This document shows positions 7,158 through 58,018 of a stretch of 64,000 nt of DNA, in pieces. Every line of letters begins with the position of its first letter. The stretch's first letter is position 1. The stretch covers positions 2,093,501 to 2,157,500 of the forward strand of contig NZ_CP119968.1 of NCBI RefSeq assembly GCF_032163395.1, written 5' to 3'. The notes under the pieces are model-generated. The model was not told the DNA's origin. It worked only from the letters and a program-made list of their open reading frames with translations, and did not search any database. Made by a program: the position numbers and the translations under genes. Source of the stretch: Gloeocapsopsis dulcis. GTDB lineage: Bacteria > Cyanobacteriota > Cyanobacteriia > Cyanobacteriales > Chroococcidiopsidaceae.

Positions 7158-7923
7158 ACTATTCTTAGCTGAACTCAAACGTAGTTGGATTGAGTTTACG
7201 CGCTATCCTGTTGATGCGATCGCCGGAATTTTTATCACTATATCTGTATTTTATGGCTTATTTCTCAGCGCGCGTTACATCGCGGGTCCTAATTTACAAT
7301 TTGGCGACAGACTTGATGCGATCGTTGTCGGCTATGTGCTGTGGACTTTAGTCGTATTTATTGTTGCAAATATCACCGCTGTCCTACAAGTTGAGATTCA
7401 AACGGGAACTTTAGAGCAAGTCATACTAACGCCGTTTGGTATATCGCGAGTATTTTTAGCAAGAGCGATCGCGAGTTTGACAATCAATATTATTGTAATT
7501 ACAGGTATTTTACTTCTAATTCTCTTACTAACAGGACGACAACTATATTTTCCTCCTGCTTTAATTTTGCCGCTTCTGACAGTTTTGTTAGGTGCTTACG
7601 GTTTAGCGTTTATTATGGCTTCTTTGGCTTTGCTATTTAAACGCATCCAACAATTACTCGGACTTACACAATTTGCTTTATTATTTCTACTAGCAGTTCC
7701 CTCGGAAACTTGGAGTGGAACGCTATGGATTGTGCGATTGCTGTTACCAATGACAATGGGTGCTGGAATTCTCCGCGATTTAATGGCACGTAATCTTAGT
7801 TTGAACTTTGTTGAGATTTCGCTTGCCTTTCTCAATGGATTAGGATATTTAGTCTTAGGTCTAATCGTATTTCGTCGTGCTGAAGTTGAAGCGAAGCGGC
7901 GAGGTATTTTAGGAGGATATTAA
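7150..7923 (+). CDS. ABC-2 type transporter permease
   Basis: The protein has 257 residues and about six hydrophobic segments, beginning with AGIFITISVFYGLFLSARYI and including IVGYVLWTLVVFIVANI-like and IIVITGILLLILLL stretches, with the family-typical EIQTGTLEQVILTPFG loop. It overlaps the ATPase gene and would form the membrane half of the same exporter. No SD is needed beyond translational coupling. Confidence 0.88.
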   Translation: MLELFLAELKRSWIEFTRYPVDAIAGIFITISVFYGLFLSARYIAGPNLQFGDRLDAIVVGYVLWTLVVFIVANITAVLQVEIQTGTLEQVILTPFGISRVFLARAIASLTINIIVITGILLLILLLTGRQLYFPPALILPLLTVLLGAYGLAFIMASLALLFKRIQQLLGLTQFALLFLLAVPSETWSGTLWIVRLLLPMTMGAGILRDLMARNLSLNFVEISLAFLNGLGYLVLGLIVFRRAEVEAKRRGILGGY

Positions 7924-7940: not shown

Positions 7941-8486
7941 TTAGATGCGGTGTAGATAATCAGTTGGTACACTATCTACTAACCAAACACCATTATCAGC
8001 ACAGTAAAAAGTATAACCTGCTTGCTGCATTGCAGCTGTATCTATTGCAAACACGACTGAACGCCCGTGTCTAGCACCAACTTTACGTGCCGTTTCGATA
8101 TCTGGCGATAAGTGTACGTGATGTCGTGACATTTTATTTAATCCATGTTGCTGAATCAAATTTACAGCTTTGTGGCCTGTTCCGTGATACAGCACATTTG
8201 GAGGAATAGCAGGTTCTAATTGTAAGTCAATTTCTACACTATGTCCTTGATTGGCTCGAATTAAAGTCTTGGTAGCATCGAAAGAAAAGCGTTTTTTATC
8301 ATTTTTAGCTACGACTTCATCTAATTCACTACGACTAATCGGAAAGGCGTTTTTAGCACAAGCCATTAATAATTCATCTACCTTAACCCAGCCGCCAAGA
8401 GTTAATTTTAAACCAAGACGTTCCGGTTGATGTCGTAGATGTTTGCTCAGATACTTACTAATTTTTATTAGACGTAAATTATCCAT
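7941..8486 (-). CDS. kptA: RNA 2'-phosphotransferase (Tpt1/KptA)
   Basis: This 181-residue protein matches KptA from end to end: SKYLSKHLRHQPERLGL at the N-terminus, GWVKVDELL, then RANQGHS, LYHGTGHKA, MSRHHVHLS and GRSVVFAID. These hold the Arg-His-Arg-Arg residues of the family's NAD+ and RNA sites. Tpt1 removes an internal RNA 2'-phosphate and transfers it to NAD+, releasing ADP-ribose 1'',2''-cyclic phosphate. It is the last gene of the leftward rtcB operon, 36 bases after the archease stop. In fungi and plants the enzyme finishes tRNA splicing; a bacterial substrate is unproven, and RtcB ligation does not leave a 2'-phosphate. Confidence 0.93.
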   Translation of the reverse strand: MDNLRLIKISKYLSKHLRHQPERLGLKLTLGGWVKVDELLMACAKNAFPISRSELDEVVAKNDKKRFSFDATKTLIRANQGHSVEIDLQLEPAIPPNVLYHGTGHKAVNLIQQHGLNKMSRHHVHLSPDIETARKVGARHGRSVVFAIDTAAMQQAGYTFYCADNGVWLVDSVPTDYLHRI

Positions 8487-8522
8487 GAGCTGAGAGATAT
8501 ATACTATTTAGCAATTCATGGT

Positions 8523-8954
8523 TCAAATATCAAGAATTACTACAGTTTTCCAACCATCGTCTGTTTTCTCTAATTGAAAGCGATGCAAGGTTACAGCTTT
8601 CACATCTATACGTTGGTGATGCTTATTAGGATTTAACTTTTCTCCTTGAGTAACAGCCTTGAGATGATGTATTTTATCTTTTTCTGCAAATTCGACTTTT
8701 TGAGCGCGTAGTAATAGTAATTCGCTGTCTTTGTAATAAATAAATTCTTGTAAGAAGTTAAACAATAATAAATCGAGGGCGTCGTTTTCTAAACTAAAAT
8801 TGCGCGTTTCTTGCACTTCTATTGCTGCTAAGTTGTCGATCATAGCATTCATTGTTGCATCACCTGCAGCGATGAATAATTCCTCTAAATCTTTCCCCCA
8901 AGCGTGAAATGCGATATCGGCGATCGCAATATCTTCCAAATACTCATAAGGCAT
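8523..8954 (-). CDS. Archease (RtcB cofactor)
   Basis: This 143-residue archease has the N-terminal YEYLEDIAIADIAFHAWGK and FIAAGDATMNAMID helices, LLFNFLQEFIYYKD, and the C-terminal metal-binding ending VVILDI. Archease speeds RtcB guanylylation and turnover and widens its nucleotide use. Here it lies one base after the GTPase gene in the same operon as rtcB, which strongly supports the assignment. Confidence 0.93.
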   Translation of the reverse strand: MPYEYLEDIAIADIAFHAWGKDLEELFIAAGDATMNAMIDNLAAIEVQETRNFSLENDALDLLLFNFLQEFIYYKDSELLLLRAQKVEFAEKDKIHHLKAVTQGEKLNPNKHHQRIDVKAVTLHRFQLEKTDDGWKTVVILDI

Positions 8955-8955
8955 A

Positions 8956-9849
8956 TTACTGCTCGCACATTTTCAATTGACTAATAATTTCTTCCTGGTG
9001 TTTGCTTACTTGCCTACCAATAAAGACTAACTCTGTAGCATCTTGCTCAAATGGTTCTAGTTCCCATCGTCCAGCTACAAAATTAAATAGATAAATTTGG
9101 TCAACAAACTTTATAAAGCCTTTTGCCCGATACACATCTTTTTCTATCAGTTTATCGGCAAATTCCTCAAAACATTCTAGCTTTAAAGTAGCCTGTGTTT
9201 TATAACTAAAAGAATCAAATTCTGGTTGATGAACATGATGTGGTTCCGGCTGAATTCGTTCTCTTGCAATTCCAAATAATAAATCTAGATCGACTTGACA
9301 GCGCTGAGTATGCAAAATTTCAGCAACTTCGTTATAGGAGTGTAACTTTGCTTCGATTGCTTGCAACTGTTCTTCTGTTACTAAATCAACTTTATTGAGT
9401 AATATGGTATCTGCGGCTTCAATCTGCATTCGTGTCGTATGACCGACACTAGGATATCTCACCATTGCATCTGCATCAACAACAGTCACTACACCATCTA
9501 ATCGGACTTTGGCTAAACTTTCTTGAATATCAAATACTAATGCATCAGGTTCAGCTACACCTGTTGTTTCCACCACAATCACATCAGGATTAACTGTCTC
9601 AATAATTTCATCAACTGCTGCTTCAAATTCTCCGAGTAGCGAACAACAAACGCATCCGCCACCCAGATCTGCCATTGCGACATTTTTACCTTGAATAACT
9701 TTACTGTCGATCGCAATTTCACCAAACTCATTCATCAAAATAGCAATTTTGTGAGGAATTGAGTTGAGAATATGACGTAGTAGAGTAGTTTTACCACTAC
9801 CTAACGATCCTGTGATAACTGTCAGTGGAATGCGCAGTTCCATATTCAT
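8956..9849 (-). CDS. COG0523 (CobW/YjiA-type) GTP-dependent metal-handling protein
   Basis: The G domain shows Walker A GSLGSGKTT, the metal-binding CxCC in GGGCVCCSLLGE, the switch region VVETTGVAEP, and NKVDL for guanine recognition. The C-terminal CobW domain starts near SFSYKTQATLKLECFEEF, and HHVHQPEFD is a small histidine patch before it. COG0523 proteins insert or store metals (Co, Fe, Zn, Mn) depending on the subfamily. Its ATG lies directly after the rtcB stop, and the archease starts one base after its stop. I infer that it serves the metal-dependent ligase RtcB. It could instead respond to zinc shortage and only share the promoter. Confidence 0.92.
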   Translation of the reverse strand: MNMELRIPLTVITGSLGSGKTTLLRHILNSIPHKIAILMNEFGEIAIDSKVIQGKNVAMADLGGGCVCCSLLGEFEAAVDEIIETVNPDVIVVETTGVAEPDALVFDIQESLAKVRLDGVVTVVDADAMVRYPSVGHTTRMQIEAADTILLNKVDLVTEEQLQAIEAKLHSYNEVAEILHTQRCQVDLDLLFGIARERIQPEPHHVHQPEFDSFSYKTQATLKLECFEEFADKLIEKDVYRAKGFIKFVDQIYLFNFVAGRWELEPFEQDATELVFIGRQVSKHQEEIISQLKMCEQ

Positions 9850-11310
9850 TTAGCCTTTGATATTCCCAATAGGTGTAAACCGGACAACTTTTTTACTAAT
9901 TCCGGCTAACTCAGCGGCTTCAATCAGTTCATCAACATCTTTGTAAGCACCTCCAGCTTCTTCTGCTAAACCAGCCCAAGAAGTACTACGAACGTAAATA
10001 CCTCGTGCTTGCATATCTTTTTGCAGTTTTTCACCACGAAACGTTTTTCGCGCCTTGGTACGACTCATGGTGCGTCCACTTCCGTGCGCAGTGCTAAAGA
10101 AACTTTGTGCGCCACTGGGTACACCTACTAGTAAGTAAGAACCTGTTTCCATACTGCCACCGATAATCACCGGCTGACCAATATTTTCATAACGCGCAGG
10201 AATACCTGTCATTTCAGGGGCAAATGCCCGAGTTGCACCTTTACGATGTACTAAAAGCGATCGCTCTTTACCATCTACAATATGACGTTCTAGTTTAGCC
10301 GTATTATGCGCTACGTCATACACCATATGCATTCCCAAATCTTCTGCAGAACGCCCAAAAATTTCAGAGAAAACCTCGCGAATGCGGTGTAAAATTACCT
10401 GACGATTAGCAAACGACATATTTAAGCCACACTTCATCGCCGAAAAGTAGGCTTGTCCTTCAGGTGAATCGAATGGCGCACAAGCTAACTCGCGGTCTAA
10501 AATTTTAATGCCATACTTGCTTTCCATCACCTTGAGAAAAACTTGCAGATAGTCAGTAGCAACTTGATGTCCAAAGCCACGACTACCGCAGTGGAACATC
10601 ACAACTACTTGATCTGGCTGTGTAATACCCAGTTTTGCTGCTAATTCAGGCTCAAAAATATTTTCTTTCTTAGCAATCTGAATTTCTAAGTAATGGTTTC
10701 CAGAACCTAAAGTTCCGATTTGATTAAAACCACGATCAATTGCTTTTTCACTAATTTTGGCAGAATCGGCACCAGCAATACAGCCATTTTCTTCTATTAG
10801 TTCTAAATCTTCTTCCCAACCATAACCATTATCAACGCACCATCGTGCACCTTGTTCAACAACTTTACGAAATTCATTACGCGATATTTTAACAAAGCCA
10901 GTACTTCCTACTCCTGCAGGAACTCGCTCATAAAGTCGATCGACGACTTTTTTGATATATGGTTTTACCTCATCATATGTCAGGTTTGTCACTACCAAAC
11001 GCATTCCACAGTTAATATCAAACCCAATACCACCAGGAGAAATAACGCCGCCATTCTCAACATCCATAGCCGCTACTCCACCGATAGGGAAGCCATAGCC
11101 AAAGTGTCCATCTGGCATACACAAGGCATATTTAGTTATTCCTGGAAGTGTTGCTACATTCGTAATTTGGTCATAAACTGCATCATCCATTTCTTGAATT
11201 AATTTATCCGTTCCATAAATACGCGCTGGAACGCGCATTCCTTCTTTGTACGAGATCGGAATTTCCCAAATCGTATCTGAGATTTGCTTTAATGATTTAA
11301 TATCAGCCAT
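9850..11310 (-). CDS. rtcB: RNA-splicing ligase RtcB
   Basis: This 486-residue RtcB has all signature blocks: PDGHFGYGFPIGG, GGIGFDINCGMRLV with the metal-binding Cys, GTLGSGNHYLEIQ, MFHCGSRGFGHQ, HMVYDVAHNTAKLE, VHRKGATRAF, GGSMETGSYLLVG, and AHGSGRTMSR near residue 410 with the histidine that takes GMP. RtcB seals RNA 2',3'-cyclic-phosphate or 3'-phosphate ends to 5'-OH ends with Mn2+ and GTP. It is the first gene of a four-gene leftward operon. The 5' leader contains an inverted repeat at 11373-11412. Ribosome-site match before the ATG is weak. Confidence 0.96.
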   Translation of the reverse strand: MADIKSLKQISDTIWEIPISYKEGMRVPARIYGTDKLIQEMDDAVYDQITNVATLPGITKYALCMPDGHFGYGFPIGGVAAMDVENGGVISPGGIGFDINCGMRLVVTNLTYDEVKPYIKKVVDRLYERVPAGVGSTGFVKISRNEFRKVVEQGARWCVDNGYGWEEDLELIEENGCIAGADSAKISEKAIDRGFNQIGTLGSGNHYLEIQIAKKENIFEPELAAKLGITQPDQVVVMFHCGSRGFGHQVATDYLQVFLKVMESKYGIKILDRELACAPFDSPEGQAYFSAMKCGLNMSFANRQVILHRIREVFSEIFGRSAEDLGMHMVYDVAHNTAKLERHIVDGKERSLLVHRKGATRAFAPEMTGIPARYENIGQPVIIGGSMETGSYLLVGVPSGAQSFFSTAHGSGRTMSRTKARKTFRGEKLQKDMQARGIYVRSTSWAGLAEEAGGAYKDVDELIEAAELAGISKKVVRFTPIGNIKG

Positions 11311-11826: not shown

Positions 11827-12216
11827 TTACTCACCAACAACAGTTGCACCCATTTGGGCTTCTTGCCAAAGCTTAAACAGTAAAAACTCCATTACATAAT
11901 CCAGATTAGTCACAAAGATACCTTCTTCAGTTTCGGTGTCGAATGCGAACCAAGTGCCGTGGAGGGAAACTTCGACATAGTCTGCGTCACAAGCACACAG
12001 CGTAATGACATCCTCTCCTAAGCGTTGAACCTCAGCTGCAAGCGAATCCAATCCTGGTAAATCAGCGGGTAATAAAAATGAAGCCATGCTAGGTTCGACA
12101 CAAATACGCTTATCTATGCGTAGTGCCAAAGTAACTCGCAGTGCTACCCATTCCTCTAGTGATTGTGTTAAATACTCTAAATAGAAATCGTTATCCAGAT
12201 ATATTAGTTTCAGCAT
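11827..12216 (-). CDS. Conserved cyanobacterial hypothetical protein (alr0857-like)
   Basis: The protein has 129 residues: MLKLIYLDNDFYLEYL, then SLEEWVALRVTLALR, and an acidic end with DTETEEGIFVTNLDYVMEF. It resembles a small soluble family kept across cyanobacteria, named here from memory only. It overlaps the end of the upstream HNH gene by 26 bases, so the two are probably translated from one message. Confidence 0.7.
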   Translation of the reverse strand: MLKLIYLDNDFYLEYLTQSLEEWVALRVTLALRIDKRICVEPSMASFLLPADLPGLDSLAAEVQRLGEDVITLCACDADYVEVSLHGTWFAFDTETEEGIFVTNLDYVMEFLLFKLWQEAQMGATVVGE

Positions 12217-12757
12217 TGTGCTTTGAAGTTCCTCCTATTTCAGGTGGAAACGACTCAGATCGCCAAAAATGTTCAGCAAAAGCAACCGTGGGATGCATTG
12301 GTGCTTTTGGCTTGGTGTACAAAGGCATACCAGCTTCGAGGGGCGTGCGATCGCTTTTACGTTGGTTACACCGTTCGCAAGCCGTTACGACATTATCCCA
12401 AGTGTGTAAACCACCTCTGGATACTGGAAGGACATGATCGAGCGTCAAATGTTTGCGACTTCCACAGTATTGACAGGTATGATTGTCGCGCCGCAGCACT
12501 TCACGCCGATTGACTGACGGAACTTTCCAAATTCGTTCAACACTGGCGACTGTTAATCGAATATATGCTGGAACTGCAAGCACAATACTTGGCGATCGCA
12601 CGAACCAACTTGTCTCTTGAACCAAATCTAGCGCTTCAGCTTTACCTGCAATCAATAACTGAACAGCTCGTCGTACATTGACTTTACTAATCGGCAGATA
12701 ATTTTTGGAAAATACGACTACTGACTGTTCTAACACTTGATTTACGATCACGATCAT
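12191..12757 (-). CDS. HNH endonuclease family protein
   Basis: The protein has 188 residues with an N-terminal VLEQSVVVFSKNYLPISKVN domain common in cyanobacterial HNH proteins and a C-terminal HNH/zinc module: CQYCG, LTLDHVLPVSRGG, WDNVVTACERCNQRK. The two CxxC pairs bind zinc and DH plus N form the HNH centre. The role is unknown; such genes are stable chromosomal residents and are not linked to an intron here. Confidence 0.88.
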   Translation of the reverse strand: MIVIVNQVLEQSVVVFSKNYLPISKVNVRRAVQLLIAGKAEALDLVQETSWFVRSPSIVLAVPAYIRLTVASVERIWKVPSVNRREVLRRDNHTCQYCGSRKHLTLDHVLPVSRGGLHTWDNVVTACERCNQRKSDRTPLEAGMPLYTKPKAPMHPTVAFAEHFWRSESFPPEIGGTSKHNAETNISG

Positions 12758-16919: not shown

Positions 16920-16992
16920 TACCCCCAGGGGAATTCGAATCCCCGTCGCCTCCGTGAAAGGGAGGTGTCCTAGGCCTCTAGACGATGGGGGC
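16920..16992 (-). tRNA. tRNA-Glu (UUC)
   Basis: The 73-base gene reads on the minus strand. The acceptor arm begins GCCCCCA and ends TGGGGGT with discriminator A; the first pair is G-U, as in cyanobacterial and plastid tRNA-Glu. The anticodon stem CCTCC/GGAGG holds the loop CTTTCAC with anticodon TTC at 16956-16958. The T arm contains GGGGATTCGAATTCCCC. No CCA is encoded. In cyanobacteria glutamyl-tRNA also feeds tetrapyrrole synthesis through GluTR. Confidence 0.97.
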
Positions 16993-57569: not shown

Positions 57570-58018
57570 GGGAAAGAGTAAGACATAAGCCGGGTTCTGT
57601 TCCTTCCTAACAACAATGTTGTTAGCGAAGTGCAGTTATCTATCTGGGACGCCTGTTACCAGACGCCTCTAGCGGTTCACAATCAGCGGAACTGGTAAAA
57701 GACCAACCATAGTTCCTACGACCTTGCTCCCAACCGGGGTTTACCGAGCCAGCGCCTCTCGACGCTGCTGGTGCGCTCTTACCGCACCTTTGCACCCTTA
57801 CCGCAAAGTTTTGAATTTTGAATTTTGAATTTTGAATTAGTAACTCAAAACTCAGCACTCATAACTCATAACTCTTTAGCGGCGGTATGTTTCTGTGGCA
57901 CTATCCTCACGGTCGCCCGCACTGGGCGTTACCCAGCAAGTTTGGTCTTTCGGGAGTCCGGACTTTCCTCAGAACAGTGACTAAAACTGTTCCGCAACCG
58001 CTGCGCCTACTCTTTCCC
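57570..58018 (-). ncRNA. rnpB: RNase P RNA (type A) with an STRR insert
   Basis: On the minus strand GGGAAAGAGTA (58018-58008) pairs with TACTCTTTCCC (57580-57570) to form P1. Conserved pieces include GAGGAAAGTCCGGACTCCC, GACCAAACTTGCTGGGTAAC, CGTGAGGATAGTGCCACAGA (conserved core), CCCGGTTGGGAGCAAGG and the 3' part CCCGGCTTATGTC. An STRR stretch (57808-57885) occupies the P12 position. Length about 449 bases. The reading frame of 72 codons within it is a by-product. Confidence 0.95.
57808..57885 (-). repeat. STRR insert in rnpB
   Basis: Four TTTTGAA heptamers (57808-57837) are followed by AACTCAA- and AACTCAT-type repeats up to 57873. GAATTTTGAATT and AACTCAAAACTC pair over 12 positions if G-U is allowed (57827-57838 with 57842-57853), so the insert can fold into a hairpin of its own. 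Confidence 0.75.

Follow-up and report, generated by a model that had tools for sequence, protein, structure and literature searches.

The RNA ligase RtcB joins an RNA end carrying a 3'-phosphate or a 2',3'-cyclic phosphate to a 5'-OH end, and it is activated by archease through guanylylation. Its two-metal site is built of cysteine, aspartate and histidines (PMC10944509, PMC10630183); in the available parts of these reports, the enzyme is activated with Mn(II), its guanylylation is blocked by Zn(II) (PMC10944509) and the metal used in vivo is called uncertain (PMC10944509, PMC10630183). Literature reports on Co(II) with RtcB disagree. In the accessible part of the description by Desai et al. 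(2014, PMC3973293), rtcB and archease stand next to each other in an operon. The locus studied here, in a 64,000-nucleotide (nt) stretch of the Gloeocapsopsis dulcis genome (contig NZ_CP119968.1) analysed as a whole and called the window, likewise keeps the two genes side by side, with conserved archease ligands and RtcB metal and guanylate (GMP) residues, but differs in having a COG0523 GTPase gene between them, rtcB in first position and an RtcB of a distinct clade. The conserved unit is this trio, rtcB-COG0523 GTPase-archease, and the kptA gene behind it is a local addition.

The four window genes are intact (Table 1) and separated by 0, 1 and 36 nt in the order rtcB, GTPase, archease and kptA; the same-strand arrangement and the gaps read in the initial annotation were borne out by the coordinates of the open reading frames (ORFs) and by Pfam. 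RtcB matched PF01139 along all 426 positions at 560 bits, the GTPase matched cobW PF02492 at 158 bits and CobW_C PF07683 at 48 bits, archease matched PF01951 at 131 bits and KptA matched PTS_2-RNA PF01885 at 181 bits, each exceeding its curated cut-off, and KptA also passed NCBIfam NF002014 (277.7 for a cut-off of 239). As judged from these models, the proteins belong to the RtcB, COG0523 GTPase, archease and Tpt1/KptA families, respectively. In an alignment to P. horikoshii RtcB, whose metal and GMP residues are given as Asp95, Cys98, His203, His234, His329 and His404 in the available part of its report (PMC10630183), the window residues C101, H206, H240, H335 and H409 were present in 93 of 93 compared sequences. 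Alignment to solved archeases located D13, K119 and D142, which recur in 93% or more of 64 sequences and would match the residues by which human archease binds metal and phosphate (D51, K156 and D178; PMC10944509, accessible part). Between window positions 7900 and 11900, no terminator-like site was found on the minus strand, the three detected being all on the plus strand (2.4 expected by chance), and promoter-like sites were not in excess (8 versus 11.3 by chance). The gene spacing and the lack of a minus-strand terminator-like site are consistent with a single operon.

To follow the locus in other genomes, 244 cyanobacterial genomes were surveyed with an orthologue threshold of E<=1e-60. 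All four GTPase genes detected adjoin archease, with rtcB beside them or one inserted gene off. A profile made from these four proteins recovered 217 relatives in GTDB genomes, and the best 80 of 217 were analysed; they are 50-94% identical, come from 14 phyla (ten bacterial and four archaeal by record title) and lie in many cases in metagenome bins. On the expected side and at no more than 300 nt, archease was found in 69 of the 80 GTPase loci, rtcB in 60, and the complete order with both neighbours within that distance in 59, distances being taken between stop-to-stop ORF ends and several misses being contig ends. Lack of proximity between the GTPase gene and rtcB in related genomes had been named beforehand as what would refute a link, and proximity turned out to be conserved. 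A linked neighbour was seen in 13 of the 14 phyla, and at least one of the two genes was present in the available DNA of 79 of the 80 loci, the exception being a 4.4-kb contig (L077). At any distance on the same strand, archease lies downstream in 76 and rtcB upstream in 67 of the 80; looser spacing is found in DPANN archaea (L069, L080, L083, L086, L090 and L094). Two different ORFs inserted between rtcB and the GTPase gene were observed at L013:8753-9376 (G197) and L224:3934-4794 (G612).

The commonest other gene family within 4 kb of the GTPase was seen at 11 of the 80 loci and was almost wholly from Verrucomicrobiota. A further conserved neighbour was also sought at any distance and rejected, as the largest other family reached 15 of 80 loci, with 6 within 4 kb, and the rest were read as lineage synteny or antisense ORFs. 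None of the ORFs in the 80 loci matched two family models, so that no trio fusion was detected. A role in anti-phage defence was discarded after PADLOC returned two weak P-loop matches and nothing else; carriage by phages was not found in an IMG/VR search, nor carriage by plasmids in PLSDB with the window GTPase as query (E 1e-40).

The RtcB proteins of these loci form a lineage of their own. In a FastTree phylogeny of 96 full-length sequences, from which partial and interrupted ones were dropped, the 64 GTPase-linked RtcBs all fell inside one clade of 67 with a local support of 100, and the GTPase was absent from the 1.5-kb flanks of all 29 RtcBs outside it. Residue 64 is Cys in 64 of 64 linked proteins versus 0 of 29 outside the clade, and residue 388 is Glu in 98% of the linked ones and Gly in 29 of 29 of the others. 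C158 occurs in 95% versus 0%, C241, beside the metal ligand H240, in 98% of linked RtcBs versus 45% elsewhere, and other clade-specific residues were found too. A further comparison, independent of linkage, gave the same RtcB type: among 14 GTPase genomes without a complete rtcB at the locus, RtcB was found in 11, and a motif search showed all 8 readable ones to be of the CMPDGH/GSMETGSY type, after leaving out L237 and L239, which carry inserts, and the partial L240. In G254, G607 and G618, an rtcB of this type lies far from the GTPase, and no RtcB match was obtained in G620, G621 or G622. As an observation apart, L092 and L067 contain RtcB frames of ~1000 and ~850 codons; that of L092 diverges from RtcB directly after the NC motif, as an intein would, and the best NCBIfam match of the window RtcB is an intein-bearing RtcB model, below its cut-off.

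The GTPase carries the features described for COG0523 proteins, which are the GTPase motifs, the Walker B glutamate, NKxD and CxCC (PMC2770081, available part). In the 84 sequences aligned, which include two genomes twice, the P-loop and other GTPase motifs, the Walker B glutamate, CxCC and the N, K and D of NKxD are invariant; the CxCC and Walker A motifs noticed initially were located in the window protein together with NKVD. This protein is 94% identical to its counterpart in G. crepidinum LEGE 06123. Eleven matches in its own genome correspond to eight genes, and the seven paralogs are 37-42% identical to it. Scores against the NCBIfam models stay far below the cut-offs for CobW (131.6 of 332.1 bits), YjiA (116.9 of 361) and ZigA (109.8 of 600). 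In the GTPase tree, 14 COG0523 paralogs, taken from this genome and others, split from 85 RtcB-linked rows with a Shimodaira-Hasegawa-like approximate likelihood ratio test (SH-aLRT) support of 99. This value was obtained after removing three duplicate rows and the fragment L205, which had left the linked group in a first tree (support 29), and some branches within the paralogs are still long. The nearest solved structure is YjiA, Zn-bound in 4ixm, and a comparison of an AlphaFold2 (AF2) model of mean predicted confidence (pLDDT) 73 with YjiA (E 4e-18, but a template modelling score of 0.49 and a root-mean-square deviation of 18) supports a YjiA-like fold for the predicted structure.

Regulation of the rtcB operon by zinc starvation was considered and rejected. 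Upstream of the window rtcB there is no Zur-like box, the best site having 5 mismatches to the consensus, equal to the shuffled background, and in 32 cyanobacterial loci the mean was 5.16 mismatches (best 4), compared with 4.96 in mononucleotide shuffles. As a positive control, two of the seven paralogs of the same genome (L002 and L007) showed a Zur-box-like palindrome with 1 mismatch, which suggests that these two proteins, and not the rtcB-linked GTPase, may serve zinc starvation.

When the survey was started from the other genes, archease was present in 11 of 244 cyanobacterial genomes, in 9 of 115 genomes of the phylum of L061 (titled Verrucomicrobia), in 96 of 115 of the phylum of L069 (Aenigmatarchaeota) and in 50 of 119 of the phylum of L051 (Acidobacteria). 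The 1.5-kb flanks of 69 archease loci were examined in the three latter phyla (9 of 9, the best 30 of 96 and the best 30 of 50, respectively). Where rtcB was in the flank (n=49), archease came first in 37, rtcB came first in 6 and the genes were on opposite strands in 6; at the L136 locus of G255 the GTPase gene is ~7 kb distant. RtcB was detected at E<=1e-100 in 65 of 244 cyanobacterial genomes, and the long type (>520 bits) in eight, of which all eight have archease and four the GTPase. The trio is therefore one sporadic lineage among RtcB-archease systems and no universal feature.

The fourth gene has a different distribution. Within the host's family, archease was found in 11 of 19 genomes, in each case next to the GTPase gene, and kptA directly after archease in two of the 11 (the window and G614); in G613 and G005, it lies at 0.8 and 1.6 kb, respectively, with other sequence between. 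Elsewhere the position is sometimes taken by rtcA, which directly follows archease in 8 of 36 cyanobacterial trio loci and in G601. The initial annotation had described a complete operon with KptA as an integral part; this over-reads the locus, as the unit conserved elsewhere comprises three genes, archease flanks one of the 30 cyanobacterial kptA loci examined, that of the window itself, and nine relatives carry rtcA in its place. For the same reason, KptA was rejected as a core member. A single pathway of all four genes, in which KptA would remove a 2'-phosphate left by RtcB or a partner nuclease, is consequently very improbable, even with kptA placed 36 nt behind archease and with intact catalytic residues. 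These residues (R18, H19, R66 and R139) are identical in the solved Tpt1 7kw8 and form the Arg-His-Arg-Arg set that we take to be the Tpt1/KptA catalytic tetrad. Against such a pathway, 28 of the 30 kptA loci are outside the genus and have no archease in their 1.5-kb flanks, kptA is present in 32 of 244 genomes versus 11 for archease, and the intervening sequence in G005 and G613 separates the genes. KptA would rather be a locally added accessory where some relatives carry rtcA. Both KptA and RtcA act on 2'-phosphates, and the 2'-phosphate cyclase activity of RtcA was reportedly put forward by Das and Shuman in 2013 as a rationale for rtcAB operons; the slot after archease may thus serve the cleaning of 2'-phosphate ends. 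In G005, an alpha/beta hydrolase gene stands before kptA (L012:4256-4849).

The recurrence of the trio across phyla suggests that the GTPase may be an overlooked partner controlling the metal choice of RtcB. We give a probability of about 0.6 to its being a GTP-gated metallochaperone, or a metal-editing GTPase, dedicated to the two-metal site of RtcB, the client being presumably RtcB, the cargo a metal and GTP the gate of the transfer. Loaded with GTP, the protein would use CxCC to hold a thiophilic metal, be it Co(II), Zn(II) or Fe(II), and insert the correct metal into the C101/H206/H240/H335 site, before or between guanylylation cycles; alternatively, it would strip a wrong metal (Zn) from that site. 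The metal link between GTPase and RtcB that was proposed initially thus stands as far as the association goes, which is strong given the order in 59 of 80 loci, and a metal role is its best reading. The proposed delivery of Mn(II) is disfavoured, because Mn(II) is held with a dissociation constant (Kd) of 0.1 mM or more by the two COG0523 proteins measured for it, YeiR and YjiA, whose metal is Zn(II), that of CobW being Co(II) (PMC7895991, in its available part), and a thiolate GTPase is unlikely to deliver a metal held so weakly. A bolder version, in which the RtcB clade has a metal site of its own (C64, E388 and C241) that the GTPase loads with Co(II), Zn(II) or Fe(II) and not with Mn(II), is conceivable but doubtful.

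The case for this metallochaperone or editing role is made by the genes and their motifs, the gene order, the clade specificity, the separation from paralogs and the lack of a Zur-like box; several observations weigh against it. The GTPase orthologue occurs in 4 of 244 cyanobacterial genomes, and its gene was found in the flanks at 5 of the 69 archease loci (L099, L129, L132, L135 and L148), or at 3 of 67 as a fair count, since L099 and L148 were survey centres picked for having it. Three members of the RtcB clade come from genomes without the GTPase (none in L158/G577 and L133/G410, a weak match of E=7e-18 in L105/G369) and retain C64 and E388, so these residues mark the clade but show no dependence on the GTPase and do not prove coupling. 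The mean number of cysteines per RtcB is not raised either (7.4 in the 64 linked proteins, 7.8 in the 32 others); with the total not raised and the clade residues persisting in the absence of the GTPase, a cysteine-rich RtcB was dropped as proof of metal transfer. Correlations of deep-pair distances are weak (406 pairs; 0.035 for RtcB-GTPase, 0.33 for RtcB-archease and 0.39 for GTPase-archease), which makes the distance correlation uninformative for such pairs. Furthermore, the pLDDT of the AF2 model falls below 50 at residues 41-72 around the CxCC switch, and COG0523 proteins can work as recruiters too: 18 of 50 members match weakly, at best with 4e-07, the NCBIfam model NF047431 of a ribosome hibernation factor-recruiting GTPase (MRF).

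That last match would fit a metal-sensing recruiter like the mycobacterial MRF, which, depending on zinc status, would direct RtcB-archease to damaged ribosomes or tRNA, but all 50 members match the CobW, YjiA and ZigA models far better and the Zur-box search found no zinc-type regulation of the operon, which makes this explanation quite improbable. Somewhat less so, although still unlikely, is a gatekeeper or guard instead of a metal carrier, comparable to MeaB with its mutase or PYROXD1 with human RTCB, which would sit on RtcB before guanylylation, protect its active-site cysteine and leave upon GTP hydrolysis. Human RTCB requires a guard against metal-induced oxidation that competes with archease (PMC12263435, PMC10944509), and MeaB is an example of a G3E protein that protects its client (PMC2770081), as stated in the available parts of these papers; however, the invariance of CxCC in 84 of 84 sequences argues for a metal, and the trio is also found in DPANN archaea and in Desulfurivibrio, which are expected to be largely anaerobic. 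Most improbable is an unrelated housekeeping function of the GTPase, with its gene hitch-hiking in a horizontally moved rtcB-archease cassette. Such a cassette would account for the sporadic presence of the trio across phyla and for the correlated pairwise distances of its proteins (r 0.86-0.91 in 64 loci), but not for a gene order retained at 50-55% protein identity while the flanking genes change, nor for the same RtcB type in genomes where rtcB is located elsewhere.

The metals of RtcB in vivo and its escape from zinc poisoning are described as unresolved in the accessible parts of the literature (PMC10944509, PMC10630183), and the retention of a metal-type GTPase in one operon with rtcB across 13 phyla opens this question to direct tests. 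If the metallochaperone or editing role is true, an orphan COG0523 subfamily would gain a client and RtcB-archease would become a three-part system where the GTPase is present. If the clade has its own metal site as well, GTP and metal status would act as a switch for RNA repair, and in these bacterial and archaeal operons the RtcB system would count the GTPase as its third core component.

The rtcB genes of the linked clade showed a further peculiarity in archaea. Six DPANN genes, from genomes with the trio GTPase, contain an insert at one point directly after the MPDGH codons (Table 1), and the other 80 of 86 distinct MPDGH sites have normal spacing. Three of the six lengths are not multiples of three, and in-frame stops are present in all four translated. 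The inserts have common edges and a fold made of an exon helix, a 3-bp helix, a 3-nt bulge and a hairpin, with z-scores from -2.6 to -3.2 for four of them and of about -1.1 and -1.3 for L235 and L236. In these six related sequences, 8 of 16 pairs are changed on both sides, compared with a mean of 3.0 over 500 shuffles, none of which reached 8, and with a maximum of 3 when the pairing is slid. The fold resembles the relaxed bulge-helix-bulge intron motif (PMC6379350, available part), but its middle helix has three pairs instead of the canonical four. The inserts are probably archaeal mRNA introns, lying in the gene for the very ligase by which introns of this kind are sealed; in that case, RtcB would have to take part in the splicing of its own mRNA, a possible feedback loop. 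A second candidate insert of 33 nt lies between the GFDI and NCG codons of the G442 rtcB (L236; z-score about -1.4), and a 30-nt hairpin insert (L128:709-774; z about -1.4) was seen near the corresponding place of an rtcB with an archease of another type.

Elsewhere in the window, on the minus strand, a class A RNase P RNA (57571-58013), a tRNA-Glu gene (16920-16992) and a stand-alone HNH protein of 188 amino acids (aa; 12191-12757) were observed, the HNH part of the latter being IscB/Cas9-like, far below the cut-offs.

Table 1. Features of the window locus and sites of the rtcB inserts in archaeal relatives (window positions unless a locus is given).
Feature	Position	Strand	Description
rtcB	9850-11310	minus	ATG start, 486 aa, long archaeal-type 3'-phosphate RNA ligase
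COG0523 / G3E-type GTPase, RtcB-linked subfamily	8956-9849	minus	ATG start, 297 aa
archease	8523-8954	minus	ATG start, 143 aa
kptA/tpt1 RNA 2'-phosphotransferase	7941-8486	minus	ATG start, 181 aa; local addition outside the conserved trio
RtcB C64 codon, within CMPDGH	11119-11121	minus	RtcB alignment
RtcB E388 codon, within GSMETGSY	10147-10149	minus	RtcB alignment
GTPase P-loop (Walker A), residues 14-22	9784-9810	minus	GTPase alignment
GTPase CVCC metal-binding motif, residues 66-69	9643-9654	minus	GTPase alignment
GTPase NKVD guanine-specificity motif, residues 152-155	9385-9396	minus	GTPase alignment
rtcB insert site	L067:7295-7362		insert 32 nt
rtcB insert site	L070:1150-1215		insert 30 nt
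rtcB insert site	L235:1549-1605		insert 21 nt
rtcB insert site	L239:1451-1518		insert 32 nt
rtcB insert site	L236:2761-2817	minus	insert 21 nt
rtcB insert site	L237:2728-2792	minus	insert 29 nt

No description of an RtcB-COG0523-archease trio was found in a search of the open-access literature, outside which key papers lie, and the main text of the COG0523 classification of Haas et al. (2009; PMC2770081), in the part available, mentions no RtcB, archease or ligase, its Additional File 3 with ten subfamilies being outside this check. A prior mention is possible. One of the closest known systems, by analogy, is human PYROXD1-RTCB (PMC12263435, accessible part), where a dedicated partner copes with the susceptibility of this active site to metals and oxidation; unlike the protein studied here, PYROXD1 is a flavin oxidoreductase, and a protective role of the GTPase is hypothetical. 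The placement of rtcA behind archease in cyanobacterial trio loci is reminiscent of the E. coli RtcBA RNA-repair operon, unlike the window operon, where there is no rtcA. To our knowledge, the E. coli rtc operon has no archease and no COG0523 gene. RNA repair systems were also reportedly covered by Burroughs and Aravind in 2016. Like CobW, YeiR, YjiA, ZagA/YciC and ZigA, the window GTPase has a G3E domain with GxxGxGKT, CxCC and NKxD, a CobW_C domain and a fold nearest to that of YjiA; it differs from these COG0523 metallochaperones in lacking a Zur-like box, in scoring below the CobW, YjiA and ZigA cut-offs and in being encoded beside an RNA ligase.

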